Shown here one piece after another: positions 9,424 to 63,600 of a stretch of DNA of 64,000 nt. Source of the DNA: Lantana camara (Eukaryota > Streptophyta > Magnoliopsida > Lamiales > Verbenaceae). The position numbers were made by a program, and so were the translations under genes. Under the pieces are notes generated by a model. The model saw nothing but the letters and a program-made list of their open reading frames with translations. It did no database searches and was not told where the DNA came from. Numbering within the stretch: the stretch's first letter is position 1; every line of letters starts with the position of its first letter. Location of the stretch: positions 33,958,501-34,022,500 of the forward strand of contig CM074865.1 in assembly GCA_037501455.1 (NCBI GenBank), written 5' to 3'.

Positions 9424-12400
9424 TGTAACGCCCCAGTTTTTCAGAGGTTTGAGCATGATGTATTCGTTTACCAATGTGCACAATTTAATTAATGATATAT
9501 GCTTCATTATTGATTTTATTAATTGATCATGAATTCTAGAGATGTTTGGGCATGTGTGTTTATGTTTGATGCCGTTGCTATTTGGTTTGATTTCTGTTTT
9601 TCGTGGAAACTTAGCATGAGTGAATTATGTGACTTATGATTATGTTTATATGCTCGTTGCATGATTTTATTCTCGTATGTGAGTTTTGGATTCTTTTGTG
9701 TGATCGGAACCGAAAAGGGGGCTAAAGAGCATTTAGCGCACCTTGTGTTCCGGGCGGCATATCTTGAGCTCGGGCACTCGGAATCGAGTTCCGTCACCTC
9801 CATTGGATCCGGATAAACGAATCGGAGACAATGGGACAAGCCTCATATTTTTATAAGATTAAGTGGATTACCAAATCTTAACCAAAACAAGCCCCTTGCG
9901 CCAAAAATGACAAATATTAGCTATTTCACGTTCACGGATCTATCCTAACGTACCTAGACCTTAACCATTGACCTATACCCACTTGCACACTCTCTCTCTC
10001 TCCCATATCAGCCCCCCCACCGAACCAAACCCCCTCTCACTCACCAAACTCAGCCAAAATGGAGAGAGAAAGAAGAAGAAAGAAGGAAAGAAGAAGGAAG
10101 AAGGAGAACTATTCAACCCTTGGGTATTTGAGCTCATACCCCCTCCATTTCTCCTCCAAATTGAAAGGTAAGACCATATTTGTAATGTACATCTCCTCAT
10201 AGTCATTTTGAGTTAAGGTTTGCATGATTTCTCCAAGTGATGAGCATGTATTGGCATATGGGGTGAATAGTGAGGGTTTGGGAAGAATTGATGAATTCTA
10301 GCTTGCTTCCTTGTGGATTCTTTTGGTATGAAGTATGTATATTGCTCCTAAGACATCATTTTTGATATGTATGAACTTGCTTTGGTTGTTGGATTAGGAT
10401 TCATGATTTTGCCAATTATGAAATTGAAGTATTGCTTGAGCTTGCTCCATATTCATTCCTTGCATGTGTTGTTGCAACTTTGGACCATTAATTGGCTTGA
10501 AATGCATGAATGCTTGCTACCTTAACTTACCTATGTGTGTTAATTTGATGTTTATATGGTTTAGCATAAGTTTTGCCCTGTTTGTTGTGTGTTTTTCGCC
10601 ACTGACCTAAATCCGCGAGGGTGGATTTGAGGCAGAAACTTTGGATCCTCCCCTGTTTTCTGACTGAGATTGTTTTGTCTCGTTTACCCTCATACGAACT
10701 CAAATTGACCTAATTTTTGAACCCACGGAAACCTCTTGAAGTCTAGAACATCCTCCAATTGGAATCAACTCGATATCTTTTCTCAATTGTGAGTTATGAT
10801 TGTTTGAAAATTGTGTCGCCACTTCACCGAACTTCTACATTGGCCCAAACTTCAAACCTACGCCATTTTCACCTTGCTTTGAACCGTGATTCGTGCCACA
10901 TATCCTTGAAAACATCTATGTGTCTAGTTTCACCTCCAACAAGCAAAACATAATTCCAATTTATCAAACTCAAGATATACCCATTTTTCTACAGCTTGCG
11001 CATTTCCGAATTGTCAACTTTTCCTAACTTTTGCTAAACTTTGCCAAAACTCGTTCTATCGCCTTCCTTGCACTTTCTCGACCCCTTATGTGACTTATAT
11101 ACTATACTAACATGCTTTATGAGGTGTTTTGATTAGTGTATGAAGTTTATGACTTGAATTGCTATGAAATATGAAAGTTATGAACGAAGGAACTTGATAA
11201 CTCCATGTATTGAATGTACTTGAATGAATTATGTCATAAAGTGCCTTCATGACATGATTTTTACTTCATATACATTTATAACATGTATTATCTTGGGTAT
11301 TATGAAATTTTATGATTTTTCATGGAATATTTTACGAGTTATGCCTCAACGTGACCTAATTGCTCCTAATATGCGCATGCATGGATCTTGACTCTCAATG
11401 TACACCCTAATTGCTTATGTAACTCTTAGTTATCACTTGTATGATATGTATACATATTATATCACGTGTTATGATTATTATTTGAATTTCTCGGATTTAT
11501 TGCGTATGAAATATGGAAGTTATGAACTCGAACGGATATGAACTTCTCTTGGAATGAATGGATGACTTGTTTACATGACTTTAAGTAATGAATTGTGCAT
11601 ATGAATGTTTCCATGATACCATATCATGTCTTATGCATTCATATCATATTCATAACATTGTCGTGCGTCGTATTTGGTTCATTTGGAGTCTTGAGTCTTA
11701 CGTGTACCCTCTATTGTCCTTGGTACAGTTTTCACGAGGGCAGAGACTTGCCGGGTTCATAGGACACTTTCAAGTCCTCTTGTTTTCTTCTTGGTTTTGG
11801 TTGGTAAGGTGTAAAGGTGGGTTTCTCTTCTATTAGTTAACTGACCCTATATACTCCCAATGTGTAAAGATTTCGGCCAAAACTATTATACGTATATAGA
11901 GTCACTTTTCAAGAGTAAATATTTGCAACGTAAAGCCCTTATTTTATGAACCCTACCAAATGTTTTGGCGAGAATGAAAGAATGAATGTTATGCACAGAA
12001 TGGGGCCCAGGGACTTGGTGTGAGTGGTGACCCGAGGAGGCATGGGCTGACGGTGAACCTTCACACTAGTCCCACCAATGAACGGCGTAACCGGACCTCG
12101 TTAGGAGTTAGCGAGTAATGGACGTTGAGTGCCATCTGGGGAGTCAGCGTTCCCCTTTTAGTCAATGAATGGATGGTTCGGGCCGATCACCCGGCCATCA
12201 CCCGGTGGAAGAAGGTGTAAATGTTCATGAATGTGCACAAAAGAATGTTATGCATGAATGAAAGAAAGAAAGAATGTTTAATAAACTACACGCGGTGTTG
12301 GTTGGAGATAATGCACGCCTACTCGCCAGACCACAAAAGACCTAAAGAATGAAAATGAACGTTATAATCCCTTTTGATGACTTCTTTATCTTACCCACTT

Positions 12401-12993
12401 GGGAAAATGCTCAAAAACCTCATTTGGGATTATAACTTGTATGTGAATGTTAAATATTGTTGTATATGCTATTTATGCCTCATTTTATACCCACCAGTCT
12501 CCTATAGACTGAACCCGGTTTGTTTTCAGTTTTCTTGCAGGTTTGGGGTGCTAGGCGGGAAGTCGAGTTTGTTAAGTCTTTCGGTCAAGTCAAAGTCTGT
12601 TCTTATGCATTGTGTATCATGAATTGTTTAAATTATAAAGAATATATGATTTGTATTGATTATTGCTACCATCATGATTTCTGAATAAGCTTATAGGAAC
12701 AGAAAGAATCCATAATTGATGTTTTGTGATTTTATTAAATTTCGGGATTAGGTATCTAAGTTAGTTGAACCCGTTACTCTTTGCTTACTTCGCTATTTAT
12801 CAATGTACTTTGCTTCCGTACTGGTATTATTTCTGTTGTAATGTTTCTTTGGTTGCGAAAGTTAGTTCCCGCCTAGCTTAGCGAGTGTGTGTGTCCCCGT
12901 TCGCCGTGATTTAGCTCGGGTATGGATTGTGCATTTCATATTCGGGTCGGGTCTCGGTGCGGGGGATGTGGTACCTTGCGCTCGGGTGCTACA
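9424..12993 (+). repeat. 5' LTR of the LARD-like element
   Basis: The LTR runs from TGTAACGCCCC to GGGTGCTACA. In order it has a CT-rich stretch near 9990-10010, a splice-donor-like AAAG/GTAAGA at 10168, one palindrome unit at 10609-10628, a conserved block CTCTTGAAGTCTAGAACATC near 10733, an acceptor-like TTTTCTTGCAG ending at 12540, and TGCTAGGCGGGAAG just after it. Small frames are not conserved coding sequence. Confidence 0.9.
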
Positions 12994-13001
12994 TCCTTAA
13001 G

Positions 13002-13013
13002 TGGTATCAGAGC
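13002..13013 (+). other. Primer-binding site for initiator-Met tRNA (LARD-like element)
   Basis: TGGTATCAGAGC, complementary to the 3' end of plant tRNA-iMet, lies 8 bp after the 5' LTR. The match continues for most of the following bases (CCGGTT). Confidence 0.92.
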
Positions 13014-15858: not shown

Positions 15859-18800
15859 TGTAACGCCCCAGTTTTTCAGAGGATTGAGCATGACGTATTC
15901 GTTTACCATTGTGCGCAATTTAATTAATGATATATGCTTCATTATTGATTTTATTAATTGATCGTGAATTCTTGAGACGTTTGGGCATGTGTGTTTATGT
16001 TTGATGCCGTTGCTATTTGGTTTGATTTCTGTTTTTCGTGGAAACTTAGCATGAGTGAATTATGTGACTTATGATTATGTTTATATGCTCGTTGCATGAT
16101 TTTATTCTCGTATGTGTGAGTTTTGGATTCTTTTGTGTGATCGGAACCGAAAAGGGGGCTAAAGAGCATTTAGCGCACCTTGTGTTCCGGGCGGCATATC
16201 TTGAGCTCGGGGACTCGGAATCGAGTTCCGTCACCTCCATTGGATCCAGATCAACGAATCAGAGACAATGGGACAAGCCTCATATTTTTATAAGATTAAT
16301 TGGATTGCCAAATCTTAACCAAAACAAGCCCCTTGGGCAAAAAATGACAAATATTAGCTATTTCACGTTCACGGACCTATCCTAACGTACCTAGACCTTA
16401 ACCATTGACCTATACCCACTTGCACACTCTCTCTCTCTCCCATATCAGCCCCCCCGCCGAACCAAACCCCCTCTCACTCACCAAACTCAGCCAAAATGGA
16501 GAGAGAAAGAAGAAGAAAGAAGAAAAGAAGAAGGAAGAAGGAGAACTATTCAACCCTTGGGTATTTGAGCTCATACCCCCTCCATTTCTCCTCCAAATTG
16601 AAAGGTAAGACCATATTTGTGATGTACATCTCCTCATAGTCATTTTGAGTTAAGGTTTGCATGATTTCTCCAAGTGATGAGCATGTATTGGCATATGGGG
16701 TGAATAGTGAGGGTTTGGGAAGAATTGATGAATTCTAGCTTGCTTCCTTGTGGATTCTTTTGGTATGAAGTATGTATATTGCTCCTAAGACATCATTTTT
16801 GATATGTATGAACTTGCTTTGGTTTTTGGATTAGGATTCATGATTTTGCCAATTATGAAATTGAAGTATTGCTTGAGCTTGCTCCATATTCTTTCCTTGC
16901 ATGAGTTGTTGTAACTTTGGACCATTAATTATCTTGAAATGCGTGAATTCTTGCTACCTTAACTTACCTATGTGTGTTAATTTGATGTTTATATGGTTTA
17001 GCATGAGTTTTGACCTGTTTGTTGTGTGTTTTTCGGCACTGACCTAAATCCGCGAGGGTGGATTTTTCCTTTTGGAAAAATCCACGGGGGTGGATTTGAG
17101 GCAGAAACTTTGGATCCTCCCCTGTTTTCTGACTGAGATTGTTTTGTCCCGTTTACCCTCGTACGAACTCAAATTGACCTAATTTTTGAACCCACGAAAA
17201 CCTCTTGAAGTCTAGAACATCCTCCAATTGGAATCAACTCGATATCGTCTCTCAATTGTGAGTTATGATTGTTTGAAAATTGTGTCGCCAGTTCGCCGAA
17301 CTTCTACATTGGCCCAAACTTCAAACCTACGCCATTTTCACCTTGCTTTGAACCGTGATTCGTGCCACATATCCTTGAAAACATCTATGTGTCTAGTTTC
17401 ACCTCCAACAAGCAAAACATAATTCCAATTTATCAAACTCAAGATATACCCATTTTTCTACAGCTTGCGCATTTCCGAATTGTCAACTTTTCCTAACTTT
17501 TGCTAAACTTTGCCAAAACTCGTTCTATCGCCTTCCTTGCACTTCCTCGACCCCTTATGTGACTTATATACTATACTAACATGCTTTATGAGGTGTTTTG
17601 ATTAGTGTATGAAGTTTATGACTTGAATTGCTATGAAATAAGAAAGTTATGAACGAAGGAACTTGATAACTCCATGTATTGAATGTACTTGAATGAATTA
17701 TGTGATAAAGTGCCTCCATGACATGATTTTTACTTCATATACATTTATAACATGTATTATCTTGGGTATTATGAAATTTTATGATTTTTCATGGAATATT
17801 TTACGAGTTATGCCTCAACGTGACTTAATTGCCCCTAATATGCGCATGCATGGATCTTGACTCTCAATGTACACCCTAATTGCTTATGTAACTCTTAGTT
17901 ATCACTTGTATGATATGTATACATGTTATATCACGTGTTATGATTATTATTTGAATTTCTCGTATTTATTGCGTATGAAATATGGAAGTTATGAACTGGA
18001 ACGGATATGAACTTCTCTTGGAATGAATGAATGACTTGTTTACATGACTTTAAGTAATGAATTGTGCATATGAATGTTTCCATGATACCATATCATCTCT
18101 TATGCATTCATATCATATTTATAACATTGTCGTGCGTCGTATTTGGTTCATTTGGAGTCTTGAGTCTTACGTGTACCCTATATTGTCCTTGGTACAGTTT
18201 TCTCCAGGGCGGAGACTTGCCGGGTTCATCGGACACTTTCAAGTCCTCTTGTTTTCTTCTTGGTTTTGGTCGGTAAGGTGTAAAGCTGGGTTTCTTTTCT
18301 ATTAGTTAACTGACCCTATATACTCCTAATGTGTAAAGATTTCGGCCAAAACTATTATACGTATATAGAGTCACTTTTCAAGAGTAAATATTTGCAACGT
18401 AAAGCCCTTATTTTATGAACCCTACCAAAATGTTTTGGCGAGAATGAAAGAATGAATGTTATGCACAGAATGGGGCCCAGGGACATGGTGTGAGTGGTGA
18501 CCCGAGGAGGCATGGGCTGACGGTGAACCCTCACACTAGTCCCACCAATGAACGACGTAACCGGATCTCGTTAGGAGTTAGCGAGTAATGGACGCTGAGT
18601 ACCATCTGGGGAGTCATGTTCCCCTTTTGGTCAATGAATGGATGGTTCGGGCCGATCACCCGGCCATCACCCGGAGGAAGAAGGTGTAAATGTTCATGAA
18701 TGTGCACAAAAGAATGTTATGCATGAATGAAAGAAAGAAAGAATGTTTAATAAACTACACGAGGTGTTGGTTGGAGATAATGTACGCCTACTCGCCAGGC

Positions 18801-19462
18801 CACAAAAGACCTAAAGAATGAAAATGAACGTTATAATCCCTTTTGATGACTTCTTTATCTTAACCACTTGGGAAAATGCTCAAAAACCTCATTTGGGATT
18901 ATAACTTACATGTGAATGTTAAATATTGTTGTATATGCTATTTATGCCTCATTTTATACCCACCAGTCTCCTATAGACTGAACCCGGTTTGTTTTCAGTT
19001 TTCTTGCAGGTTTGGGGTGCTAGGCGGGAAGTCGAGTTTGTTAAGTCTTTCGGTCAAGTCAAAGTCTCTTCTTATGCATAGTGTATTATGAATTGTTTAA
19101 ATTATAAAGAATATATGATTTGTATTGATTATTGCTACCATCATGATTTCTGAATAAGCTTATAGGAACAGAAAGAATCCATAATTGATGTTTTGTGATT
19201 TTATTAAATTTCGGGATTAGGTATCTACGTTAGTTGAACCCGTTACTCTTTGCTTACTTTGCTATTTATCAATGTACTTTGCTTCCGTACTGGTATTATT
19301 TCTATTGTAATGTTTCTTTGGTTGCGAAAGTTAGTTCCCGCCTAGCTTAGCGAGTGTGTGTGTCCCCGTTCGCCGTGATTTAGCTCGGGTATGGATTGTG
19401 CATTTCATATTCGGGTCGGGTCTCGGCGCGGGGGATGTGGTACCTTGCGCTCGGGTGCTACA
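15859..19462 (+). repeat. 3' LTR of the LARD-like element
   Basis: It is nearly identical to the 5' LTR along its length. The main length change is an insertion of about 33 bp that doubles the palindrome unit (17046-17065 and 17078-17097, against one unit in the 5' LTR). The candidate donor is at 16605 and the candidate acceptor ends at 19009. Confidence 0.92.
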
Positions 19463-30002: not shown

Positions 30003-31446
30003 TGATGGGAAAAAAAAAATAGTAACGCAACGGAATTTAAAATTTTTTCCCAAAAATAAGATCTAGACTTGCAGTTCCTATTCCTGAATCGTAAGGATTT
30101 CAAGAAACTTACTTAAATCGTTGCTTTCTTGAAATGTTTTGAGCCGTCCTCAAACGGGCTTCAAGCGGCAAGTCCCTCGAACTTCTTCGAATCTTTAAGA
30201 CTCCGAAATCGTAGTCCTCTAGAGTAATAATCCACACCAACCTCGATCACGGTCTAAATAGGGAGGATGCTAGTACTATATTCAATGTTTAGGCTATAGG
30301 GAATTGTGTGAAGTGATTCAGAGATTTTTTGCTATCATTCTCCCATGGGGTTCGAACCCCACCCTTAAATAGGCTAGGGTGGTTCGAACCCCCTTGTCTT
30401 ATTAGGCAAGGATTCCAAATCCTCCAAGACTTTGAATTACTTACTAGGTAAGAAAGGTATTCTACTTTGACCAAAAGTCTCCTTTTATCAACTTTCCTTA
30501 CAAGAAATTCTATCTAACTCATTTAGATATTTTCATGGGATATTTTATTTATTCATAATAAATAAATTAATGTCAATAATTAATTAATTCACAATTAATT
30601 TTTTATTGGACATTTAAACTCCAAATTGGACTTTATAATAATTCATAATTAAATTAAAGTCCATTAAATAATTAATCAAAATTAATTATTTAATTCATCA
30701 CACAAGAAGAGACACGTGTCTCGCTTAGACACGTGCGCCATGCGTGTGACCCCTCTTTTTGATTCTTAATTGGTTCGATCAACTCGTTTAATCGATTCAA
30801 GCCTTAACCCTCGTGATCGGGCATTTGTGTGTAGCCCTCTAGGTTCTTTATTCAATCAGCAGTGACCCTGATTAATTAATTCCTAATTAATTAATCAGTC
30901 GACAGATCACCCTACCATAGTCTATCAACAGGTGTGTGACCCTTAACTGAATAAGAATGTATAAATTCGATGAACCTTTAAGTCATTGACATATGGGAAA
31001 TAAGGTCCTCCTACAACCTATCTCTCAACCAAGATCTAGGGTAAAGGGATAGTTAGAACCCTAATAATCTCGGTCTTAATGCTATGTTTATTTCATATCC
31101 ATTTGATCTCGATTCAAGAAACCCTTTTCTTGATCTCGATCCACTGCCTTGTCTAAGGACTCCGAGATGGCATATGAATGACTCACACAATAAGAGATCA
31201 TCTTGCTAAAGCAAGTGTGGGTCCTTCATCGATTCTCACATGCTTTCACGTGCCACTTGTGCAGCCCCAAAATAAGTCGTAGTTCAGCTGTCTTGGGTTA
31301 CATCATTTTAAGCTTATTTCTAAGACTACAGAGTTAGCTCTTATAAAGCATCGATGGAATCTCATGTCTAAGGATTACTGAATCACATTAATGACTTGTG
31401 AGATATTTCCTAATTTGGAAGTTTCTATTTTCAGAGATAGAAACTT

Positions 31447-33025
31447 TGTGACACCCCGTCTTCTCGATAATCAAGGTATGACGTCACGAGAGAGTTTAAT
31501 TCTGCACTTTCATGATTTATGTGAATTCGCATGTCTTACGTGTCAATTTACAATTTATTTTAATTATGTGCGCGTTAGAATTTAATTAAATGTACTTGGA
31601 CTCAATCGTCCAATATTTGCAAATTAGGGACCTAATTATAATTAGGTTGTTTTTAGCCTTCGTGGCTACCTTGTGCTCGGGATTCGAATTCGAATTCTAA
31701 CCTTGTCATTGAGTTCATTTCAATGATTCGGATTCAATGAATTAACCTTTTATTTTCTAAGCCATTTGATCGCCCTACTGTTTTAAAATCCGATCCGAAT
31801 GGACCGGATACCGTTCGACCCTACCCCGTGTGACCGACCCGTTTCAGCGCTTAAAGGGCTGAAAATATCAGCCCTCTCTCTCCCCATTTTCATGAGACAA
31901 GCAAGCAAGGGAGAAGAGAAGAAAATCCCCTTTTGGCTCAAGCTCGTGCCCCGTTCGACCTCCCGATCGAAGAACCAAGGTAACCATTGTATTCCTCTAG
32001 TTACGTGCTTCAATTCTACGTGCATTTCATGGTGTGATTGCTTATCTAAGTGGCTATTTAGGAATGATGATGAATAATATAGGTTTCGTATTTTGGGTGT
32101 TCGGTCTTACTTCGAAGTCCAATTTGTGTTCTAATGTGTTATATATATATCTGATATACCTTGAATTTGGGTGTTTTTGGCATGAATATTGATTGGTATG
32201 TGATTTGGGGTGGTTTAGGAACCACCCCTGTTAAGCTCCTGCTGTGTTACTGCATTTTTCGGGAGAAGACGACCCAACACGACCATGTCAGCCCTTAGTT
32301 CATTTCCAACACGGCCGTGTTCAAACTTCAAGTTGGAATTTTTTTTATTCCGACACAGCCGTGTCAGCTTCCAGGCCAATTTTGACACAACCGTGCAGCC
32401 TTGGTTTGTGCTCTGTGTAGCCTGAATTTGGCACTATAGAAACCTTTTGAAGTTTAGAACATTCTCCAATTGGAATCACCTCAAAATTTGTTCTAGATTG
32501 TGAGATATAACCGTTTGAAATTTGTGTCGCCACTTCATCGGAATTCTATTTTCGTCCAACTTTAAACCTATGCCATTTTTGCCTCGCTTTGAACCATGAT
32601 TTGAGCCATATACCATTTGAAATATCTATATATCTAGTTTCATTTCCAAGAAACAAAACTTAATTCCCATTTCTCAAACTCAAGTTATGATCATTTTCCT
32701 ATAGCCTGTCCATTTTAGAAAATTTCCAGCTTTTGACCGTTTTTGCTCGGAACCATTTCTTATGGTTTTCTTCCGCTTTTCTTGCACCTTTTCACCTCCG
32801 AACCCAGTCCTAACTTGTTATATCTTATGTATGTATATGTATTTATTCTAATATGCATTGGCTTTGTGATTTTGTTTGAGTTTCAGGGTCTACGTTCCTC
32901 CTGACTTAGGTGTGTCTGTCAGTCTCCCATTCGCCTCTGCTTGGTTCATTTACGGGTTTCCCATCTCGTATGTGGATTAGGCTTAGGTGCGGGGGATGTG
33001 GTGACCCACCGTGCTGGGTGCTACA
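31447..33025 (+). repeat. 5' LTR of the gag-only gypsy element
   Basis: It runs from TGTGACACCCC to GGGTGCTACA. It has a donor-like CAAG/GTAACC at 31980, four palindrome-like units at 32276-32396 built on ACACGGCCGTGT, the conserved block TTTTGAAGTTTAGAACATTC near 32444, and a pyrimidine-rich acceptor-like site ending at 32886. Confidence 0.9.
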
Positions 33026-33045: not shown

Positions 33046-33283
33046 TCTAAGTTGCAAAACCCGAGCTCAGTGTTGTGTTGTGTCGGTCTAAGTCGAACGG
33101 CATAGGACAATGTGGCTTTGTGTGTGCATTTGCATCGTGAATTGCTATGATATGAATCTGAAGTTTTACCTTTTTATTGATTTTATATCTTGTGGTGTAT
33201 TGCATTTTCTAATTGCTCTTAACTGATTTAAATATGGGACATTCTCACGTACTAACCGATATACATATATCTATATTCTAGTT

Positions 33284-34122: not shown

Positions 34123-35923
34123 TGGGATAGGTTGAAGAAGTGTTACGCGCGTGGATTAAAGGAACATATGGTGGCCGAATACGACAACTCCAAGGTTAGC
34201 AAACAACGGAAGCGAGAACAAAAGCTTCAATTTGGAAACAGACCTGACCCCGAGGATGGAGGTAATTGCATACATGGCACATGCATCCATGACATATTTA
34301 AAATCCTGCATTTAATTATTTGTTATATCAAAATTGCTATTCCTAACATGCTTGTGTGCTTGAGTGCAAATTACTTGATGCATGGCATCAGCATATATAA
34401 ACCCAACATGCACATTTAGTGTCTGCTTGATAGGGTGTGTCTTCTTTGAACCTCCAAGTTTGGTGTTCGACGAAGTTGGAAGAGTTGGGTAGAGTGAGGG
34501 TTGGAATTAAGGATCCTCTTTTGAGATTGGATTGAAAGGTGTGGGGTGAACGAAGACGGTGTTGAAGAGGATTGATCTGGGAAATCTACAAACGGGAATT
34601 GAGGATTTAAGGGAATTAGAACCCGCTTTGAAGAAGGGTTAATTCTTCTAATAAGGTATTCTGATGAAGGTGTCGAAGATGGAATGCTAAATTTATGAAA
34701 GACACCAAAGGGAAGTCCATTAACAGGCACAAAATGGGATTAGTTTAAAAATATCAGGGCATAGACATTGATTTGTATTTAACCGTGCCTTTGAAGAGGA
34801 ATTCAAAGAAGATTAACGGAAGACTTTGGCCGAGTTCTTGAGGGACCTCAAAGGGCCAAGATAAAATCATGAGCGAAGTCGTGGGTTATAGGTGAGAAGA
34901 AATTAAGGAATGTATCGGTGTGGGAGTTGGGAACTTCGAGTTACTTAACAACATTGACAACGCAAGGGGATGTCTCCGGGCTAGAGGAGGAGTTCCATGG
35001 TAAACAATAAGGGACTTCAAACACATTACTTCTACACTCCAAGAAAAGAGTGGTACTAAATGCGAATATCAACATCTTACTCTAGAGTACCTTAACGGGT
35101 TATAAGACAAGACCCTCTTTGGGAATTCTAAGAGCAAGTATTCGAATGAAGGAACTCGGGCTATAAGGCCGTTGGTGATAAATCGGAGCCAAAGGATTCA
35201 ATTCTTGGGAATGGAAGCAAGACCAAGAGAACACTTAAGAACTGAAGGTTGGATTAGAGAAGTTTCCAAGAGTAAGGCAACAACTGTGGGATAAAGAACG
35301 GGAGAAGAGTAGCAGCACAAGATGATTTGGGAACTTCGAGGCGTAATTGGGGTAATATTTGAAGACCAAAAGCTAAATAAGTAATGGAAGGCCGGATGGT
35401 TACCACGGTATCGGAGCACATCACCATAAGATCAAATTTTCCACATCGGTGAACGGTACACTAAACATATATATCACTTGCATCATGCATCTTTAGTTTT
35501 GTTTGTGTTTTAAGTGTTCTTGAGTTAGTTGCTACATGGTAAGATGAGGGTCGAGCTTTGCAACCATTCAACGAGCCTCTTGAAGAGTGGCGTGGTAAGA
35601 AGAGGGTTCGAATGTTAGACACTTCGGACCTCAGATCATGGACAATGAGGAGATTTGCTTTGAGCTTGGTTGTGGAGTGGCGTGGCTGAGCTTGAGAGTT
35701 GACTCAAATGAACTCAAACGGTGAGACTTGAATCTACTTTAGACCCTCTTTACCGCGGAGTCGATCGAACAATTCAAATGACCGGATCGATTTGAAGATT
35801 CAAACCCCTTGTGCTTGAAGACCTTTCTCGATGAACCTCGAACTTGGGTAAATACAGAAAGATGTTCGAGCTTGAAACTCGAGCAGTAGAACCTAGGGAC
35901 CAGGTTCTCTTAAAGCGGGAGAT
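34123..35923 (+). other. Non-coding 3' internal region of the gypsy element
   Basis: No pol domain can be read. Module words shared with the LARD-like element (GGTGAACGGTACA, then GCAT and CATGGCACATGCATCCAT) occur at about 34255-34300 and 35445-35490. The polypurine tract TAAAGCGGGAGAT (35911-35923) precedes the 3' LTR. Confidence 0.65.
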
Positions 35924-38596: not shown

Positions 38597-38621
38597 AAGA
38601 GAGAGAGAGAGAGAGAGAGAG
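38597..38621. repeat. (GA)n microsatellite
   Basis: An uninterrupted run of about 12 GA units in the transcribed-looking part of LTR-A, just upstream of the donor-like site. Confidence 0.9.
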
Positions 38622-39086
38622 GAAGAAGAAGCTCCCCAAGCCCTAACCCTTGAAGCTCAAGTTTTGCTTTATTCGATCACTTTCCCGACGATCCGAGGTA
38701 AGATTTCGACTCTCCTCGATGTGTATTTTCATTCTACACCACTTGCATCTCTTGAATCTTTGTATATGTGAAGTATGAACAAGATAATAAATAGTGCTTT
38801 CATGTCAAAATTTGAGAAAATGTCTTGTACTTTGATTCCCACGATTTGAACTTGATATATGTTGTTCCTTGGAGCTTAATTGATGTATATTATTTTGAGT
38901 GGATTGTTGAAGCATGAGTGTATCACCATTGTTGGACCTTCAAGATGTAAAAATGGTGGTTGGTTTCTTGGTGCATTCCATGAGTTTTTGACAAGAGAAT
39001 TTGATGTAGCATGATTACATGAACTTGTGCCTTGAATTTGATTGCATTTGGTTGAGTTTTGATGTGGTTCTTGCTCCCTTCTCTTT

Positions 39087-46499: not shown

Positions 46500-46550
46500 T
46501 CTTTTCCCCACGAACAACCCCTACTACTACATCTTTTTCCAGCCCAGAAA

Positions 46551-46642
46551 GGTTCCTCGGGCGGGGAACGTTTGCCTTTGAGGAGTCCCCGGGTGGGGAC
46601 CTTAGTGCAGAAACTTTCTGGACAAGTTCCTCGGACGGAACA
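46551..46642 (+). repeat. Palindrome array of LTR-A (word GTTCC-n-GGAAC)
   Basis: Three units: GGTTCCTCGGGCGGGGAACG near 46551, GAGTCCCCGGGTGGGGACC near 46583 and AAGTTCCTCGGACGGAAC near 46624. Each has pairing arms around a CGGRYG-type centre. Confidence 0.8.
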
Positions 46643-47709
46643 TTTTGCCTTGAAATCTCCCCAGCAGTGGACCATCCATCTGAGCTCCGATTGACCTGAA
46701 ATTTTAACCACAGAAACCTCTTGAAGTGTAGAGTATTATCCGATGGAATCACATTAAAATTCTTCTCATTTGAGAGATATAACGGATCCATTTTGGTGTC
46801 GCCACTTCACAGAAAATCTGCTTTTGTCCCACTTCAAGATTACGCCATTTTTACATCGCTTTGAACTAAAATTCAAGCCATATATCATTGGAAAGACCTG
46901 CTTGTCTAGTTTCATACTCAACAAACAAAACTTAATTCCAACTTCTAGAACTCGAGATATCTCCATTTTTCTACAGCTTGCGCATACCGAAAAACTACCA
47001 GCTTTTACCAAAATCCATTTCCTTGCGTTCCTTTCACTTCCTTGACTTTCTGTATGTGATCAAATTGATCCCTTTTGTCTTAAACTTGTATCTATGATGC
47101 TAATGCACTTTTCATTGATGTATTATGATATTTTTATGAATTTTATGGCTGGATTTACGGGGTGTAAACGTGACTTTTGCGCATGAACGTTTAAATGCTA
47201 TATTATAACTCTTCTTGCAACCAATCTATTCTTTGTGGCTTTAAGGGATTCCTCTCACCTCTAATTGATTCATATGCGTTGTTAGCATGTATTATAATGT
47301 GTTATGAATTGAATATTGAATGAATGAACGATATGGAATGAACGAATGCTAATGAATGGACATGATCTATTAGTGTAATGAAGGATAGAATCATTTATGT
47401 GTCTAGGTGGTATTAATTGTGCACATAAACATCTTCATAGCACATTGTTATTACTCATGCATGCCATATCACATTAATGCATTGCCATGTCACATATATG
47501 GTTTATTTTGGAGTCTTGAGTCTCACGAATGCACCGTGTTATCTTTTGTATAGTTTTCTCGATGGTGGAGACCTACTGGGTTCATAGGCTATCTTCAAGT
47601 CTTCTTTTCTTCTTGGTCTTTTTTGGTAAGGTGTAGCCAGGTAAGTTTCTCTTCTATTAGGTAAACTTTGACCCGATATATCCCAATGTGCAAGATTTTT
47701 GCCAAAGTA

Positions 47710-47737
47710 TTATATATATATATATATATATATATAT
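47710..47737. repeat. (TA)n microsatellite
   Basis: A run of about 14 TA units within LTR-A. Confidence 0.9.
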
Positions 47738-48488
47738 CGTGTATTTTCAAAAAGTCAATGATTTAACGTTAAGGCCCTTTTCTTTAAAATGAATCCCTAC
47801 CTAATATTTTGCGAGATCAGTGTTCACAATGAATAACTGGGGCCTTGGGACGAAGTGTACGTGGCTATCCGGGGAAGCGTGGACTAACGATAATCCCGTG
47901 CACTAGTTCCAACAAACAATGACGATGTTACGACCCTCGTTAAGAGATTAACAAGGAATGGGAATTGGGATTTTAGGCCTTCATGGACCCCTCTAGCCAC
48001 AATGAATGGGTGGATGGGTCTTTGGCCAAGTCCGTCCACTAATCAAAGGAAAAAAAGGGTAATTGAATGAATGATTATGCATGAATGATTGAACGAAGGA
48101 ATGAATGAATGATTATGAACGAAAGAATGTTGTGTGATCGCTAAGAAATGAATGAATAATGCACACATGAGGAGAAGGTTAGAGAATTCGCCCACTCGCT
48201 GGGCTCACGTAATGACTTAATGAATGAATGAATGAAATTGATTGTTGTAATCCCGCGTATTGTTTTCTTTGTTTTCATCCACTTGGGAAATGATTCAAAA
48301 CCTCGTATGGGATTAGAACTTGCATGTATGTGTTTAAATTCTGTATTATTATTGTACTAAACCGCTGTTTTATACCCACCAGTCTCTTAAAGACTGAACC
48401 CAATTTGTTTTCAATTTCTCTTGCAGGTTTTGGAGTGCTAGGCGGGAATTTAAGTCCGTAGAGTCTTAGGAGTCGTGTGTAGTTTACC

Positions 48489-51008
48489 TGTAACGCCCCA
48501 GCTTTCGGCCTTTCAGGTATGAATGCCATGAGTGAGTTGTGAGAGTTAGAATTTAAATTAATTTGATCATTTCTTCAATTTTATATGTCATGACATAATT
48601 TTTATAAAATTTTATTTCAAGTGTTTTTATCAAATTCATACCAAATTGATAATTATTGCATAAATTGAATTTGATTGTAACGTGAATCAATTCCCGAGCA
48701 TGATTTAATTTCTTCTATGTCCTTGTTTGATCATTTTCTTAAATTTGGGGACTTAATTACATGATTTTTTTTTTCATGGGACTAAATTGATCATTTATTA
48801 TGGAATTGGATTTAATTGCATAACTTGTGAACTTGAGGGATTTAATAGCAATTGGAGCATTTTTCTTCCCTTTTTAGAGCAGCACATTTTCCTTATCTCA
48901 TATAAACATATCATACTTGCTCATTTGCTTCCATTTTCTACCGATTCAAAAACCCTACCAAGAAAAGAAGGGAATTTCATCAATTCAAGCTATATTTTGT
49001 GGGTTTTGTATGTATTGGAGCATCATCATCAACATATCTCCATTTCTTTTCATCTCTTTCTTATTTCAAGATAAGATGGAGATTTTGATCAATTCTTGGA
49101 TTCATTATGTGAGACTAGAGTTATGGTTTGAGTTTGATGAATTGAGTATTTGTTGTTGGAAGTATGCTGGTGAACTTTGAGCTTAAGTTTGAAGCATATA
49201 TTATGAAGTTTATGAGCTTAGATTATAGGTTGACATATGGGTTTGAAATGAGTGATTCTTGATGATCAAGCTTGGATTTAAGTGTTTATATGAGTTATTA
49301 TTGATCTATAAGCATGCTAGTATGTATATTGCATGATTTGTATCAATTGGAGATGGAATTATGGATCTTTGTGCTTTGTGGTTTTGGTACGTTTTTCCCC
49401 TGAATACTGCCCTGTTTCTGTCTCTACTGCGTATCGGGAACGGCCCTTCCCGTCCCAGTTCATTCTGGGAACGACCGTTCCCACCCCTGCCAGCTGTCCC
49501 GCGAGACTGGGAACGACCCTTCCTAGTTTTGGCTTACAGCCGAAACGGCCGTTCCCAGCCATGAGCAAACTCCAAATTCTTTACAAACGCACTGGATTTG
49601 TTCGGGGAGCCAGGAACGGCCCTTCCCATTTCCAGTTTAAAACCGGAACGGCCGTTCCCATGCTCTAGAGGGTTTTATGAATTTTCTGCATAAAATTGAG
49701 TTTTCATAATCCGTTTCTAATGCCATAATTCATCGATACGTGTTAGTATATACTCATTTTATGCATGAATATGATCATACCATTCCATAAATTGTCAATG
49801 CACGTTATATTGTTCATGATCACGCCGTTCGTCCTAATTGGTACATTTGAGTCGTGTCTCATGGACAATTGTCTTTCTTGCACAGACCAGCTTCCTGGTG
49901 ATGAGGACCAGACCCCGTGAGCTGTTTCCTTGTTTATTTTGGTCACACAGGTGAGGTTTAATTTCTAGATATATAGAACCGTTATAACCCTATGTGAACT
50001 TTTCGGCTAAAATGTATATATATCTATACATCTTTCAAAAACTCGATTGATTGAATTGAAATGACTGTTTTGGCGAGTAACTGTATTGCACTATGGGCCC
50101 GAGGGTAGTGGCTTGAGCTAACCGGGAAAGCATGGGCTGACGGGTAACTCTGGCCCTATCCTCACCATTTGGGATGACCCCTGAATCCACCAGGAGGTTT
50201 GATGGAGGAAGGAATCCCCGTACGTGGGAGTCATGTTCCTGATGTACACACTGATTGGATGGTTGGGCCTTGCAAACCCACCATCACCCCGGAGGAAGAA
50301 GGGTTCATGAAACTGCCAATTGTGCACTATAATAACTTGCATGCTTATTATTGAATTGAAACACAACTATAGTATTGTTCACTGTCTGGAGTAAAGGTTG
50401 GAGACTTCCCTCACTTGCCGGGCCACTGATTGACTGGAATTGTTAATAAATTGATAAAATTGATAGTTGTAATCTTGGGTGATATTATATCTTATTTCTT
50501 GACTTATATTGTTCTTTTACAAAAATATTACCCGAGATTATAACTTGCATGTATGTGCGCTTATATTTATATACCCCTCACTCAGCCTATTGTAGACTGA
50601 CGCCTCAACCTTTCAGATTTTACAGGTGCGTGCTAGGCAGGAATTAGAATCGAGTCATGTCTTTAATTTGGGTCTAACACACTTCACCTTCATCTTATGT
50701 TCATGTATTGATATTTATGGAATATTTTGGCATGTTTTATGGAATATTTTGGAGATGATATTGTATTGATATGTATATGGATAGATAGTATGCTTTTGGA
50801 TACTTGATATTTGATAATGAAAAATTATGCTTCCGCTTTTATTGCTCTGAATTGATTATTTGGTTTGGTGTTAGTCCCGCCTAGATATTGTGGTTTTTTT
50901 TATTGTCTCCCGTTCGCTATAGCTTTGGTTCATGTATGGATTGTCCATTTCATATATGAATTGAACTATAGTGAGGGGGATGTGGTACCTAGTGTTCCGG
51001 GTGCTACA
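48489..51008 (+). mobile_element. Solo gypsy-type LTR (LTR-C), 2520 bp, TSD TTACC
   Basis: The ends are TGTAACGCCCCAGC at 48489 and GGGTGCTACA at 51008. TTACC is duplicated at 48484-48488 and 51009-51013. It holds six palindrome units at 49436-49659 and an acceptor-like TTTTACAG ending at 50625, followed by GTGCTAGGCAGGAA. The donor position reads TTCAAG/ATAAG (49071), probably a mutated GTAAG. Confidence 0.93.
49436..49659 (+). repeat. Palindrome array of LTR-C (word GGGAACGGCCGTTCCC)
   Basis: Six units in 224 bp: GGGAACGGCCCTTCCC, GGGAACGACCGTTCCC, GGGAACGACCCTTCCT, CGAAACGGCCGTTCCC, AGGAACGGCCCTTCCC and CGGAACGGCCGTTCCC. The spacers between them are unrelated to each other, so this is not a simple tandem duplication. 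Confidence 0.9.
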
Positions 51009-51706: not shown

Positions 51707-54700
51707 TGTAGCACCCCACACGCAAGGCGCCACATCCCCCGCACTAAGAACCGACCCGTATATGAAATGGGAAATCCATATACGTGCCAGTTCAAAGTGT
51801 ACGGGGACTCACTCACTCACTAGGCTAGGAGGGAACTAAACTTCGAAATCAAATTAACAATTCTAAAGAATAAAATGCATGTGCGGAAGCAAAATATATA
51901 ATCAAGCATAAATACAATGAGAAATTGACAGGTTCAACTAACATAGATACTTAGTCCAAAAAATTCATACATAAACATTTCCAAATATACATTCTTTTAA
52001 GCCATCGTATGTACAAAATGCGTATGAGGTGACTTAGACTTAAATATGAGACTTGACCGATTCAGAACCCCGCCTAGCACTCCAAACCTGCAAAAGAACT
52101 GAAAACAAAGCCGGGTTCAGTCTATAGGAGACTGGTGGGTATAAAACAGGGCATATCATAGATAATATTACAGAATTTAACCACACGCACATGCATGCTA
52201 TAATCCCGTACGAGGTTTATAAGATATTTCCCAAGTGGGTTAAAACAAAGAAAACAACGCTCGGGATTACAACAATCAATTTCATAATTCACAGTCATAA
52301 TTGTTCATGCGGTCGATACGTGAGCCCTGGCGGGTGGGCGAAAATCTCCAACCTACTCCTCGTGTGTGCATATCAATTTAGTTTCTATTTTTGCGATCAT
52401 ACACATTCATACATATTCGTTCATAATCATAATCATAACATATCATGCATACTCATATCATTCATAATCATAAACAATTTCACCTTCTTCCTCCGGGTGG
52501 TGGACGGGTTAGCAAGACCCGACCACCGGTCCATACATAGGCCAATGGGGGTACATGAATCCCCCAAGGGCACTCAGCTCCCATTCCTCGCTGAACCTCC
52601 TAGCGAGGGCCGGTATCACCGTAAATGTGGTGGGACTAGTTCAAGGGATCACCGTCGGCCCATGCCTCCCCGGTTAGCCACTTGCACTAAGTCCCTGGGC
52701 CCGTGCAATCATAATCATGTCCATGCCAAAAATCATAAGGTGGGAATACATAATAGAAGCGCTTTACGTTTGAAAATCATAGACTCTTTTGAAAAGACTC
52801 GATATATATACATATATATAATATTTTGGTTTAAAACTTTCACATAAGGGATATATCGGGTCATCATAGCTAATAGAAGAGAAACCCACCTGCTACACCT
52901 TACCGAACAAATACCAAGAAGAAAAGAAGACTTGAGGTATCCTATGAACCCGACAAGTCTCCGCCCCGGAGAAAACTGTACAAGGACAATGCAATGAATT
53001 CGTGAGACTCAAGACTCTAAATGAACCATATATGACACACGACAATGTATTGATCCTGATATGAGATACAAAGGAAACATGATTCATGCCATGAGGTCAT
53101 AGATTCAAGTAACTTATCACAACGTCCAATACGGGGTGGATTCATTTCATGCGTTTGCTATCTTTCATATCTTGCATTCATTACGAGCCATAAATTATAT
53201 ACAACAAGTATAACATAGGTTATGAAGGTACAAGAGGTGATATTATGTCAAGGGATCGTTCATGTGCACGATTAATATTTCTAAGAACTATAAACGTTCA
53301 ATAAATTCATTCCAAGAATCATTCAAATTCATTTAAGTTCATCACTTTCATAATCATACCAAATTAATCTAAGGAATTCAAATAATACGCATAACACATA
53401 GTATACCATGTATACGATTCATATAAGCTCTTAAGAAAAGGTAAGAATTCACTTAAGTTTCAAATATGTAACATCAAAGCATACGCATACCATTTAAATT
53501 CGTTCAAGTTCATATCTTTCATATATCAAGCCAAATCAATCCAAGAATTCCAAATAACAAGCATAACACGTCATATAACACGTATACATATCATACAAGT
53601 CATAAAATAAGAAATAAGAAGCAATTAGGGTTCATCTTGGAAGCAAAAGATCCATGCATGCACACATTAGGAGCATTAATGGCATACTGATACATAACTC
53701 GGAAAATATTCGACGAAAAATCATGAAACTTCATAACACATAAGTTAACACATTATATGACATGTTAATGAAGTGATTGAACCAAAAACGAGCTAAATAA
53801 GCCATGCAATTCACATTGCAAACTGAAAATTCATGTAGATATGTGAAGGGTCGCAGCCGCGACCCATTTCGTTCATGAAATGGTAGCGGCCGCTACCCAT
53901 GCAAAATCCGAATTTTGAGCAAATAATTCCATAATATGTGAGCAAGCCAAATTCAGGTCGCGGGGGCGACCTGAAATGCATGAAATTCAGGTCGCGGGCG
54001 CGACTTGAGAGAGAAATCAAAGTACGCACACACGAGTCGCGGCCGCGACCAAGATTGTTCTTGGTCCGATCGCGGCCGCGACCTACCCAACTCCGGAGCA
54101 GAACACAGCAAAAACAGAGCAAAAATGAGGCCAAGCTTTAACCAACAAATTCAGGTAAGTTATAACAACAATTATACATCAAAATAACTCCAAATCAACA
54201 CCGAAACAGGCTCTCCAAGTGATCAAACGTGAGGAAGGGAGGAAGATGACCATCTCATGAAATTTCATCAAAGTTCCATCGATGGCAACTCATTAAACGC
54301 TTAGCCATCATAAAATACATGATCATGAAGATAAAGAGGAAGTTCAAATAATCATATTCATGCTTGGAATCAACCTAAATCATCAAGGAATGAGAGAGAT
54401 CAACATATGTATCCAAAACCTAACTATTTCTTCTCCTCAGCCATAAACCCATGAAAACATGCTCAAAATTGGGGATGAATGAATCAAAATGACTCATATT
54501 GAATGTATAACACAACCCTAAACTCACCTTCTGAATTGGATGGAAGATGGAAGAGATTTGAGCTTAAATCTCCAAGCTTTGGTAAGGTTACGGGAATGGA
54601 ACTGGAGCAGGGACTTGGGACTGATATTTCTCTTGGTTGTGAGGGTTGGTTTGGTTGAGGGAGGTAAGGTTCAGATAAGGGGTTGAGTTAGGTTTCCAAT

Positions 54701-55492
54701 TCCTCAAACCATGGTTAATTTGGTCAAGGTTTGAATAAGTTATGGCTCTTTTAGTAAAATGTGGCAGTTTTGGGGAACGTTGCATGTTTCGGTTGAATTT
54801 CGGGGGTTCAAATGGTCTTAGAAAAATATGAGGCTAAGTTTATTGAACCTAAATTTTTGTTACGAGTTCAACGGAATTGACGGAACTCGATTCGGAGCTC
54901 AAAATATCACATACGGAACTAAGGGTGCACTAAGTGCTCGTTAGCCCCCGGTTTGGTTCCAAACTTACCAAATAAATTTAAAACACAATCAAAAGAATCA
55001 GAAAATGTAAAACGAGCATAAATACATGTTCATAACACATATTAGTCCGACATATTAAATTTCCACGAAGTTACGAATTTACTTCATATAGTAACGGCGT
55101 GCAACTTGTAACGTAAATGCAAATCGACCAAGAATTCATATAATTCAAATTTCCAAAAGAAATTAAGAATCCATTTTAATCATTTATTAAAATCTAACGA
55201 AATGCATATTATAGAAAATTAATTAAAATTACAAATAGTAATTATCACAAACAATTAATTACGCAATTTCTATAATTTAAACGCACAATTGGGGAACACA
55301 TAATTATTCATGCACGAGTGGTTCAAGTAATCGAATTCATTCCAATTCAAATATTGCATATATTTCAATTAATCACATATTTAACAATTAAACATTGAAA
55401 TTTAAATATATAAAACACTTATAGCCAATTAATTCGCGCAAATTAGTAAACATATATGTCATATTAGAATACGAAAAAGTTGGGGCGTTACA
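51707..55492 (-). mobile_element. Minus-strand solo gypsy-type LTR (LTR-D), 3786 bp, TSD TCTGC
   Basis: On the minus strand it starts TGTAACGCCCCAAC at 55492 and ends GGGTGCTACA at 51707. TCTGC is duplicated at 51702-51706 and 55493-55497. It has a donor-like AGAAG/GTGAGT at 54527, six palindrome units at 54084-53848, and an acceptor-like CTTTTGCAG ending at 52088, followed by GTTTGGAGTGCTAGGCGGG. Confidence 0.93.
53848..54084 (-). repeat. Palindrome array of LTR-D (word GGTCGCGGCCGCGACC)
   Basis: Six units: GGGTCGCAGCCGCGACCC, GGTAGCGGCCGCTACC, AGGTCGCGGGGGCGACCT, AGGTCGCGGGCGCGACTT, GAGTCGCGGCCGCGACCA and CGATCGCGGCCGCGACCT (plus-strand reading). They stand out as GC-rich islands in AT-rich DNA. 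Confidence 0.9.
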
Positions 55493-59738: not shown

Positions 59739-60655
59739 CGTGCTATTGATATATACATGCATTGATATGATGCATGCGATACATAATTTTAAATCTGCTA
59801 CTGTGCACGTAAATTATGTCAAAGGAGACTGGTTTTTAAGTAGGACCATTGTGACCCCTCCAGTGTTTCTTGGGAATTTACGTGGAATGGTATTTCTTTG
59901 GGAAACAATTTAATTGCTTTTCTTGAAAAATTACCAAATCAGTAAACATGATTTAAATTATGTGATAATTTAGTTATAGCATTTTTGCTTTATGCCATTT
60001 ATTTTAAGTATGATAATTATGTGATAATTATATACAAGCATGCTTAATTTTATGGTATGATCATGATAATATTAGATATTATGCTATTTATAATTATGCA
60101 TATTTTATTTAATGTGATTAAATGATCTTTTTTAATAGAGATTAGACGCGATGCATAATTGGACTAATATTTTTCGGCCTAATTAATAAATAGTTATTAA
60201 ATTACCTTAAAATATTATTGGGATTTTAAATATGATTTAGTAATCCTAGTGGGAGCGTATTAATAAGATTAATCACTTCCAACAATAAGAAGCCAAAAGT
60301 GATTATATGATAATCAAAAGATAATCCAAACCTCTTAAAAATTCAAGTGGGAGCGAGATGAAAAGAGTTGGATTCTCACGGCCTCCATTACCCGTCTATA
60401 GTAGAGTGGATGTGTACTACTCCCTTCGGCGGGTATATATTCGCGGTATACAAGACTAGACTTCTACGGATAGAATGAAATGCTGGGAAAGTCAGCTCGA
60501 CCACGCGTCTGTGGAGTGTCTTGACCTACTCGTACGGACTTCTAGGTAATGGTACACACTTGAATAAGAAATATATTAACCTCCCTTCGGAGCTATGTTA
60601 TATTCACTTAGAGGCCAAGGGTTGACGTGGTGGACTAACATTGTTTGGTAAGGGT
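59739..60655 (+). other. Untranslated leader of copia 3
   Basis: No frame with gag similarity. The phrase GTGGGAGCG occurs twice (near 60250 and 60347). The leader is cut at 60656 by a solo LTR and resumes at 63792. Confidence 0.6.
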
Positions 60656-63600
60656 TGTTGCGCCCGAAGCGGCGAGCCACCACATCCCCCGCACCTAGTC
60701 CCGAACCCACATATGAAATGGAAAATCCATACATGAGCCCAAAACTAAGTGAATGGAGACCTACGCACACACTAACCCAGGCGGAGCTAAAACAAGACAG
60801 AGCGCGTAAAACAAGGAACATAGCGGAAGCATGCATAAAGGATACAAAAACATAATTCAACAAACAACGGGGTCTTCTATCCCTAGAAGCCTGTCCCGAA
60901 TAAATATCCATTACAACGAGCTTAAATTCAATAGATTCATAAACCAAATATCAAATACAAACTTATACAAAATACAACTATATGCAAGTGGAATGCAACT
61001 CGATCTAGAAGGCAGGAAAACCCGATCGACTCACATCTCCGCCTAGCTTGAACCAACACCTGCAAAACTAAAAGTTGAAAGGAGAGGGTCAGTCCACTGA
61101 CTGAGTGAGGGGGTAACGCATACCCACACATACATATATATAAAGCATAGCACTTATTAAATCGAAAGACTATGAACCGGGAGTAGGGTTTTGCATACCA
61201 AAACCGTTTTCAACTCAAACGTATTCTTATATTCATACTTACCAAAACATAAACATAACTGAGCGTAATCTTATCAAATCATATCAAAAGGCTCCTATCC
61301 TTTTTCATAGTTAACATATCATACGTAAACTTGCCGAGCACGAACACAAACATCCCATCCTGGGCTCCTCATAACATATCATACGAAAACGTAAAACATA
61401 GCATAATATTCATACCAACCTCCTTACTCCGGTGATGGAAGGGCTGCCTGACCCTAAACCATCCATACTTACATTAATTGCAGGTCGTGAGTTTTGTGAC
61501 ACCCACACCGGCGGACTCCATCCCCCAACCAAACCTCCTGGCGGGTTCCGGGTTCATCCTATCATTTGGAGAAGTGCACAGGGGTCATAACCGGCGACCC
61601 CATGGCCGTCCCGGGTCTCCCTTACCCATAACTCCGGGGCCCAACATACCAAACATTACATACTATAACATACCGAATCATACCATAACATACCACAACT
61701 CGCCTACAACATACTTATTATAACATAACGTAACATACGTACCTTATCGGAGCATACCATACCTTGCAACTTAGCATATGCTATAAACATACCTCTCCGT
61801 GTCCTCCTAATCTAGAGCTAGCATGAAGACACACGGTTTGGAGCATAGCCTCGTTGCAAAACATAAGCTTACATACGCTCATACTTATAGGTTTCAAAAC
61901 CCGAATCATGGCAAAAGTCATACACATACCGTATAAACACATATCTATTATATAAATATAATAGTATATTCGCATGCGGGCTTGAAAATGAGCACATAGG
62001 GGTCGTAGGTCGCATTAACTAAAAGAAAATCCTAAAACCTCACCTTTTACCAAAAGTACCCATGGATGAGCGTTGGTGATCAAGAAGAAGTTAAACGGTG
62101 GAACCAACACCTCTCGAACTCAAATTTGAGATAAACAAACATAAACTCATGACGTAGACTCGATCATGAACCAATTAGACGCTCGGCGACACATACGAAT
62201 GCAAATGGATGCAACGCATATCATATAGATTCATACTTAGGCATATCAAATCAAATAATGAGATATCACATAAGGAATTCAAGAATTAAACTCATATCAT
62301 ATGAAATAAACTCATGATGTGTCATATTATAGCATAACATAAGTGTTCATGAGTCTACAATGCATAACAGAGACAAACGAATCTAGAAAGAATCACACAT
62401 AGCACTTAAACGCATATCAATTCAAGTCACGTTTACACTTATCAAATGGATCCATAAAATTAGAATAAATGACTAAACATGTTGTATAATCACATATTAA
62501 CATGTTGAGGTCATAATTGGGGTGGGATAAATCGAATACAATCAAGAACGAAGCAAGAAATGAACAACGAAACGAAGCGGAGCACACAAAATCACACCAC
62601 ACGAAACACACCCCAAAATAGAAGAAGGTAACGGGCGTTAGGTATGGCCATCCCAAAAGCCTTAATGCCCGTTAAAAGAAACAGGAGCAAAATTTCTCCA
62701 AGGCTAGAGGAGGTAATGGGCGTTACCTCCCCAAAGGGGAAAAGACTTAACGGGCGTTAACCCCGTCGTCTGCTCCAAAACGAGAGCAGCCATGGCTGCT
62801 CTCCCCTGCAACTCAACCAACAACAAGAGCAGCAAGGAAGAAGCATGAAAGCAGCAACAGATAAGCATGAAAAGGTCAAAGAAACATCATAGAAACAAGC
62901 TCTAAAACTCCAAAATCAATCAAGCAAGAGATTCATCAAAATCCAAAATCCCTAACTATTCACACCAAAACTCATAGCATGCTTGAAACTCCATGAAAAT
63001 GAGAATAACATAGCTCTAAATGACCACAAGAATGAGGAGAGTAAAACCATATACTTACCTTTCAATTTGGAGAAGAAATGAAGATGTATGGAGCTCAAAA
63101 CTTGCAAAGTGAACAGTATCAGATTTCCCCCTTTTTCCTTCCTCTCGGTTCCACCTCGTTTTTCCCCTTTTTTGCTGAGTTTGAGTGTGTGGTTGGGAGA
63201 TAATAAGAGAGAGGGTTTAACTAAGGTCAAATAGGCTCAAGAATCAAGTCATTTGGTTAAGAAATGAAAGAGTTTTAGCCAAAATACTCCAAGGTGGCGA
63301 AGCTGTGCATGCTGTTCGGTTCGGAGGAAATACAGGGGTCCAAACTGGCTTAGAAAAATATGAATCTAGGTTCTTCATTTCCTTTCTTCCTTACAAGTCC
63401 AGCGCCACTTCCGGAATTCGAATCCGAATTCCCGATCTCAAGTTATGGCCTCCGAAATCCGAGGCGCGCTAAAACTCGTTAGGCCCTCAAATCCCAAAAA
63501 TAAGGAAATGGTCTCCGACCAATTCGAACAAGTATAAACGAATAAAATAAACACGTAAACAAGTTCATGAAATATATAATTCAAGCATATCACGTATTCA

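Follow-up and report, generated by a model that had tools for sequence, protein, structure and literature searches.

Family-specific palindromes on a common spacing grid in chromovirus long terminal repeats of Lantana camara: putative operators for dimeric DNA-binding proteins

We analysed a 64-kb stretch of the genome of Lantana camara (assembly GCA_037501455.1, contig CM074865.1, forward-strand positions 33,958,501 to 34,022,500), hereafter the window, in which six families of gypsy-type long terminal repeats (LTRs), denoted LARD, gag-only, A, C, D and F, carry clusters of short palindromes. The clusters lie where a preliminary description of the window had located them, and our analysis revealed that they are variations on one unit, a dyad with the core CGSSCG (S = C or G) flanked on each side by an arm of ~4 nt that varies. 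When degenerate sites are included, there are six such sites in C and in D, four in each of F, gag-only and A, and one or two in LARD (Table 1); the arms of C and D are unrelated and their six-site rulers are nearly equal. The preliminary description had considered the palindromic words to be unrelated between families, which is contradicted by the common core, and the exact 16-mers that it listed for C and D are idealised, neither cluster holding a perfect copy; TTAACGGGCGTTAA occurs a single time in F.

The reuse of these words is not reproduced by shuffled sequence. A strict scan of the 64 kb for near-palindromic 14-mers (seed of at least 6/7 pairs) reused at least three times within 250 bp returned three places, namely C, D and F; 20 dinucleotide shuffles gave no such place. 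The claim that all six families reuse their words holds when degenerate sites are admitted, the strict scan detecting these three alone. A looser scan for pairs yielded 38, compared with a mean of 1.02 (maximum 3) in 50 shuffles, with 8 of the 38 falling outside the clusters, and a third, looser scan for arrays added both gag-only LTRs, with 3 called sites, along with three non-cluster places, of which two precede the palindromes within the LARD LTRs and the third is at 29741. Hairpin density was rejected as a signal: 200-bp windows at 21326, 31576, 8601 and elsewhere exceed the clusters of C, F, the 3' LARD LTR and gag-only, and D alone ranks at the top.

The arrays recur elsewhere in the host genome (1.27 Gb, 378 contigs), in which they were called with a custom script. 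Two samples were taken regardless of palindromes. One consisted of the first 30 places of the pattern TGTCTAGTTTCAYNYYCNACAARCAAAAC, taken from a conserved block that follows the array (601 hits on one strand and 595 on the other; none for the control on either); the other comprised 20 hand-chosen places, neighbours skipped, of an upstream motif, GCCTCATATTTTTCTAAG (999 and 1057 hits, none for the control). Arrays were found in 24 of the 30 block loci and 12 of the 20 upstream-motif loci, compared with 0/600 and 0/400 shuffled sequences at the same settings. At least three sites were present in 23/30 and 10/20 loci, respectively, and switching off the core filter raised the latter figure to 11/20, the addition being locus L086, with 0/400 among the shuffled sequences. 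Single words are abundant, GGTCGCGGCCGCGACC occurring 2022 times (control 1) and TGACACGGGCGTGTCA 5275 times on the forward and 5311 times on the reverse strand (control 0), and searches of viral contigs, genome contigs and a protein database returned no relatives outside the host genome.

The spacing between sites, which the preliminary description missed, is a grid on which many different words are placed. Measured centre to centre in sense order in 40 arrays, which were called in 56 segments (the 3' LARD LTR and LTR-A of the window are among the 16 without a called array), 61 of 107 gaps span 31-35 bp, 30 span 39-51 bp and 8 span 71-77 bp, the remaining eight being 22, 23, 23, 60, 65, 65, 67 and 85 bp. 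Without the window, the three classes account for 52, 26 and 6 of 92 gaps. The values of ~32, 43 and 74 bp are close to 3, 4 and 7 turns of DNA.

Table 1. Palindrome arrays, the adjacent conserved block and the LTRs that carry them (window coordinates)
Feature	Position	Strand	Remarks
LARD 5' LTR, single dyad	10609..10628	+	AAATCCGC-GAGG-GTGGATTT
LARD 3' LTR, two dyads	17046..17097	+	32 bp apart
gag-only 5' LTR, four dyads on ACAC-N4-GTGT	32276..32396	+	gaps 32, 44, 32; last dyad degenerate, positioned by eye
gag-only 3' LTR, array as in gag-only 5' LTR	36748..36868	+	first and fourth degenerate
LTR-A, four dyads on GTTCC/GTCCC words	46552..46672	+	gaps 32, 41, 31; third and fourth degenerate, last placed by eye
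LTR-C, six dyads on GGGAAC-N4-GTTCCC	49435..49660	+	gaps 31, 42, 32, 71, 32
LTR-D, six dyads on GGTCGC-N4-GCGACC	53848..54083	-	sense-order gaps 33, 45, 34, 74, 33
LTR-F, four dyads on TTAAC/GGTAAC-N4-GTTAA/GTTACC	62626..62762	-	gaps 34, 51, 34
Conserved block 3' of array	32439..32715	+	homologues 10728-11005, 17198-17474, 36911-37195, 46695-46985
LARD 5' LTR	9424..12993	+	
LARD 3' LTR	15859..19462	+	
gag-only 5' LTR	31446..33025	+	gag open reading frame 33227-33868 (matches Retrotrans_gag)
gag-only 3' LTR	35923..37502	+	
LTR-A, first part	37985..39085 (approximate start)	+	split by nested T elements 39086-46504
LTR-A, second part, array-bearing	46505..48467 (end not located)	+	
LTR-D	51707..55252 (approximate start)	-	
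LTR-F	60653..63792 (approximate ends)	-	

Among 104 sites preselected for at least 5/6 core letters and at least 3/4 arm pairs, the core is exact in 55 and one letter off in the remainder; CGGCCG is the commonest form (27/104), and CGCCCG and CGGGCG are near variants. The arms around these three cores include the types ACA, CAAA, GTCG, TACC, ATCC, TCCC, TCCA, GGAA, TAA and GAA. The symmetry of the arms was assessed on 42 exact-core sites from 17 of the 30 block loci, which were picked blind to the arms: positions 1 to 4 are paired in 38, 39, 38 and 35 of the 42, compared with 18.4, 25.0, 26.9 and 11.2 expected if the two sides were independent, and the pair types vary between families. Changes in the arms are two-sided.

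The position of the arrays is also kept, in agreement with the preliminary description. In five families they are 0.8-1.2 kb from the beginning of the LTR (the start of LTR-C was not located), and they lie ~290-445 nt downstream of a GGTAAG-like site, for which C has only TGTGAG. Among the 24 array-bearing block loci, the first site lies 342-357 nt before the block motif in 16 and the last site 244-249 nt before it in 17. In L048 and L076 the distance to the block motif is ~100 nt shorter than in the rest of the sample; both loci have GTCG-word arrays of the 33-34, 75, 33 type, which seem to take the place of part of the block. Many of the 30 loci have a donor-like AAG/GTAT or similar sequence, scored with a matrix, roughly 640-745 nt upstream of the block motif, with a weak consensus. 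The block itself, ~280 bp long (10728-11005 and homologues), is mostly 74-80% identical among LARD, gag-only and A, compared with ~60-66% for most other stretches of the LTRs.

Comparison of 12 loci in which four sites are clear (66 pairs, 10 with the same word and 56 with different words) revealed nearly the same block identity in the two classes, 0.80 and 0.78, respectively, whereas arm identity was 0.90 vs 0.41 and core identity 0.82 vs 0.68; in this comparison, L053 was kept apart from the other ACAC loci, so that some different-word pairs share similar arms. Closely related lineages also diverge in the array: in L053 and L057, which differ in their words, the block is 0.85 and the array 0.60 identical, and in L052 and L061 the values are 0.83 and 0.53. 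Judging from these alignments, the array evolves faster than the adjacent block. On a tree of 33 rows built from the block only, with the word labels of L058, L060, L070 and L071 assigned by eye (no array was called in these loci), the words need 13 changes, or 15 if absence of an array counts as a state, compared with a minimum of 9 and a mean of 23.5 for shuffled labels; GTCG, TACC, ACAC and CAAA require three changes each, forced by the starred branches of the tree. The spacers of same-word arrays on separate lineages match at a mean of 9.6 positions (8 pairs), compared with 7.6 for different-word arrays (66 pairs) and a baseline of 6.8. Given that the matches spread widely (16 for L051/L057, 13 for L053/L075 and 5 for L047/L056), exchange of whole cassettes and independent adoption of words are both possible. 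Spacer identity in gapped alignments was uninformative, with 0.60-0.69 for different-word pairs and 0.67 for shuffled sequences. Loss or gain of a unit was seen between L051 and L057 and also between the two LTRs of the LARD element, the 5' LTR (10609-10628) being one palindrome unit short of the 3' LTR (17046-17097); repeated GGGTGGATTT words flank the unit.

The coding capacity of an array-bearing element was examined in locus L097, a 7.4-kb segment between two places of one array word. Its internal region (4.5 kb, one element) encodes, in this order, gag, protease, reverse transcriptase, RNase H, integrase and a C-terminal chromodomain match, with weak profile scores for Chromo (22.9 bits, cut-off 25.1) and rve (20.7 bits, cut-off 32.6). 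From the gag-pol order and the chromodomain-like tail, the element is a chromovirus of the Ty3/gypsy superfamily, and we provisionally assign the array-bearing chromoviruses to the Tekay(-like)/Del group. In this one internal region, no sense-strand frame of at least 90 amino acids was found besides gag-pol.

Given the observed dyads, common core, grid, position, two-sided arm changes and repeated switching of words, we propose, with a probability of roughly 0.55, that the arrays, carried by the LTRs of Tekay-like plant chromoviruses and of non-autonomous elements derived from them, are cis-regulatory operators read by dimeric proteins. Each site consists of an arm of ~4 nt, the core CGSSCG and the inverted arm, and the sites are paired at a distance of about three helical turns, an array usually having two such doublets and sometimes more. 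Dimeric DNA-binding proteins would bind there cooperatively, on the same face of the helix, and would control transcription from the LTR, through either activation or resistance to silencing. That the arrays are read as double-stranded DNA by dimers is suggested by the dyads, the two-sided changes, the fixed gaps and the lack of wobble pairs, and the preliminary suggestion that a dimeric DNA-binding protein has a diversifying recognition site here agrees well with the two-sided arm changes, the kept grid and the faster change of the array relative to the block. The common core would point to a single protein family, with the arms selecting the member, and host transcription factors appear to be the likeliest readers, because different lineages use the same words and no extra protein was found in the single internal region analysed. 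Words found on separate LTR lineages suit a limited menu of host factors, or exchange of cassettes, better than a private partner encoded by the element. The code of an LTR family would change by concerted replacement of the arms and by exchange of whole cassettes between lineages; the share of each route, like protein binding, cooperativity, host origin of the readers and the transcriptional role, is inferred. A literature search for a host protein that reads CGGCCG gave no lead.

Several observations weigh against this proposal. The counts are not independent: the sampled loci hold near-copies and all lie on one contig (contig 1). No array was called in 6 of the 30 block loci and 8 of the 20 upstream-motif loci. 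Family T, represented in the window by three LTR copies, has similar LTR ends yet no CGSSCG array. The words are also inherited, shuffled labels never fitting the block tree with as few changes (0/200). Helical phasing is weak, the peak at 10.5 bp (R 0.70), obtained from a hand-typed list of related gaps, barely exceeding those at 10 and 11 bp (0.69 and 0.66), and the doublet gaps range over 31-35 bp. Finally, use of the donor-like site would make the array intronic, which is unusual for a promoter operator, although not for an enhancer; because it follows the donor-like site, the array may be an intronic enhancer.

Retroviruses carry palindromic stem-loops for dimerisation and packaging close to their major splice donor or 3' of it, and the arrays could by analogy be an RNA signal, in which stem-loops or duplex-forming sites follow a splice donor and the arms preserve RNA pairing within a family. 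Such a function would account for the location after a donor-like site, as in retroviral leaders, for the self-complementary centres of many words and for the strong predicted folding of the sense strand in D, C and the 3' LARD LTR (z-scores of -9.4, -6.7 and -4.8). However, folding is moderate in F (-2.7), weak in gag-only (-1.3 and -1.7) and nil in A and the 5' LARD LTR (0.1 and -0.1), so that the last three sets fold little or no better than shuffles, neither strand of the clusters is consistently preferred, and the centres of LARD and A are mostly not self-complementary. Furthermore, pairing of the arms is kept without the tolerance of G·U pairs in the sense RNA that marks packaging or dimerisation signals: among mismatched arm pairs, G·T is not favoured over A·C either in the 42 exact-core sites (1 vs 7) or in the 416 arm pairs of the 104 sites (9 vs 15), and hairpins give no reason for the constant, DNA-like distance between sites. 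An RNA signal is thus unlikely, and the hairpin that the preliminary description offered as an alternative fits poorly. Somewhat less probable still is a mutational by-product, whereby template switching during reverse transcription perfects palindromes and the arms stay complementary without any function. Template switching has been reported to occur at inverted repeats, the copy number is unequal in the two LTRs of one LARD element (10609 vs 17046/17078), and a small excess of spacers are themselves inverted repeats (stem of at least 5 in 6/61; shuffled mean 0.6, maximum 4), but the process leaves unexplained why one word is found at 4-6 separate sites, why families have the core in common and why gaps and position are kept.

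Arrays of short repeated sites also occur in the subterminal regions of En/Spm, where they are bound by the dimerising protein TNPA; unlike the elements studied here, En/Spm is a DNA transposon that encodes its own binding protein. Another candidate explanation is that a fast-evolving DNA-binding protein encoded by each retrotransposon reads the word of its own family and counters silencing, in the manner of the VANC proteins of Arabidopsis VANDAL elements. According to PMC5735166, the VANDAL motifs are element-specific, short, repeated in noncoding DNA and subject to concerted change, as are the words described here, but they have a single orientation, spread as tandem repeats and are bound by the element-encoded protein. 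By contrast, the arrays consist of dyads on a grid with a common core, identical words sit on separate LTR lineages, and gag-pol, with its weak chromodomain match, is the sole sense-strand frame of at least 90 amino acids in the internal region of L097, in which no gene for a binding protein was seen. The analogy drawn in the preliminary description thus holds in logic but not literally, and we consider a private reader of this kind improbable, with Gag or integrase as the candidates left for the role. The least probable explanation, to which we give very little credence, is that the palindromes serve chiefly as a target of the host, feeding small RNAs and methylation. This has been argued for maize Sireviruses, whose palindromes attract small RNAs according to PMC10760457. 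Selection should purge such sites, silencing provides no reason for the kept core and spacing, and the observed/expected ratio of CpG in the 30 block loci is alike across the array (0.95) and across the block (0.99). The same source describes maize gypsy elements as generally devoid of an obvious peak of microRNA-like structure.

The nearest known counterparts are the palindromic CGG-CCG repeats of copia Sireviruses. According to PMC2829016, the LTRs of these Ty1/copia elements contain family-specific palindromic repeated motifs, with a CGG-CCG core in most families and varied outer symmetry, located just upstream of a conserved TATA box and called Sirevirus-specific. The two systems are alike in palindromy, in reuse many times per LTR and in the combination of a core with differing outer parts. 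They differ in that the carriers here are Ty3/gypsy chromoviruses, as indicated by the domain order in L097, that the sites follow a grid of 31-35 and 39-51 bp, no fixed spacing being mentioned in the consulted sections of that paper, and that the arrays lie downstream of a donor-like site, with words that switch between close LTR lineages. No TATA box stood out in our LTR alignments, in which no scan aimed at TATA boxes was made. On palindrome arrays in gypsy or Tekay LTRs, a literature search that mostly did not extend to subscription journals yielded, among the papers listed, the Sirevirus work and insertion-site palindromes alone, and the accessible part of PMC3601003, on LTR structure, contains no occurrence of 'palindrom'.

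More tentatively, the operators might constitute a swappable address code, in which the grid and core are fixed, the four-letter arms choose the member of the protein family that drives the element, and the host niche is changed by replacement or exchange of the cassette; the likeness of the core to that of copia Sireviruses would then reflect two superfamilies independently targeting one host protein family. With about ten operator codes on related backbones, and single words in thousands of copies, binding specificity, spacing and family success become comparable, and, with a core so similar to that of Sireviruses, the idea of a common host factor can be tested directly. Reading of the code by a host protein family, if true, would account for the coexistence of sister retrotransposon families through a division of host regulators among them.

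Several further features of the window concern the structure of these and other repeats. LTRs with located ends start with TGTRACRCC or a similar sequence and end with GGTGCTACA or a similar sequence. Family T consists of three near-identical LTRs of 2.05 kb (39086-41141, 41769-43822 and 44450-46504), nested in LTR-A and separated by just ~630 bp. Aligned with one another, the LTRs of A, C, D, F, T and LARD resemble a small gene, with a donor-like GGTAAG, a second exon-like piece bounded by ACAG and GGTGGGTTT, and TTTTGCAG/GT..GCTAGGCGGGAA; the piece bearing GCTAGGCGGGAA is complementary to TCCCGCCTAGC ~250-330 nt further on, a possible long-range stem. When loci were sampled by the exon-like motif shared with T, 6 of 30 bore, in place of the CGSSCG array, repeated words resembling ATGCATGCATGT; several TGCATG words are present in the LTR of T as well. 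A fragment of a ribosomal L13 family gene is present in the window, and a separate repeat family at 8590-8680 and 30690-30740 has several CACGTG (G-box) palindromes, ACACGTGTCCCTAAGGACACGTGT among them.

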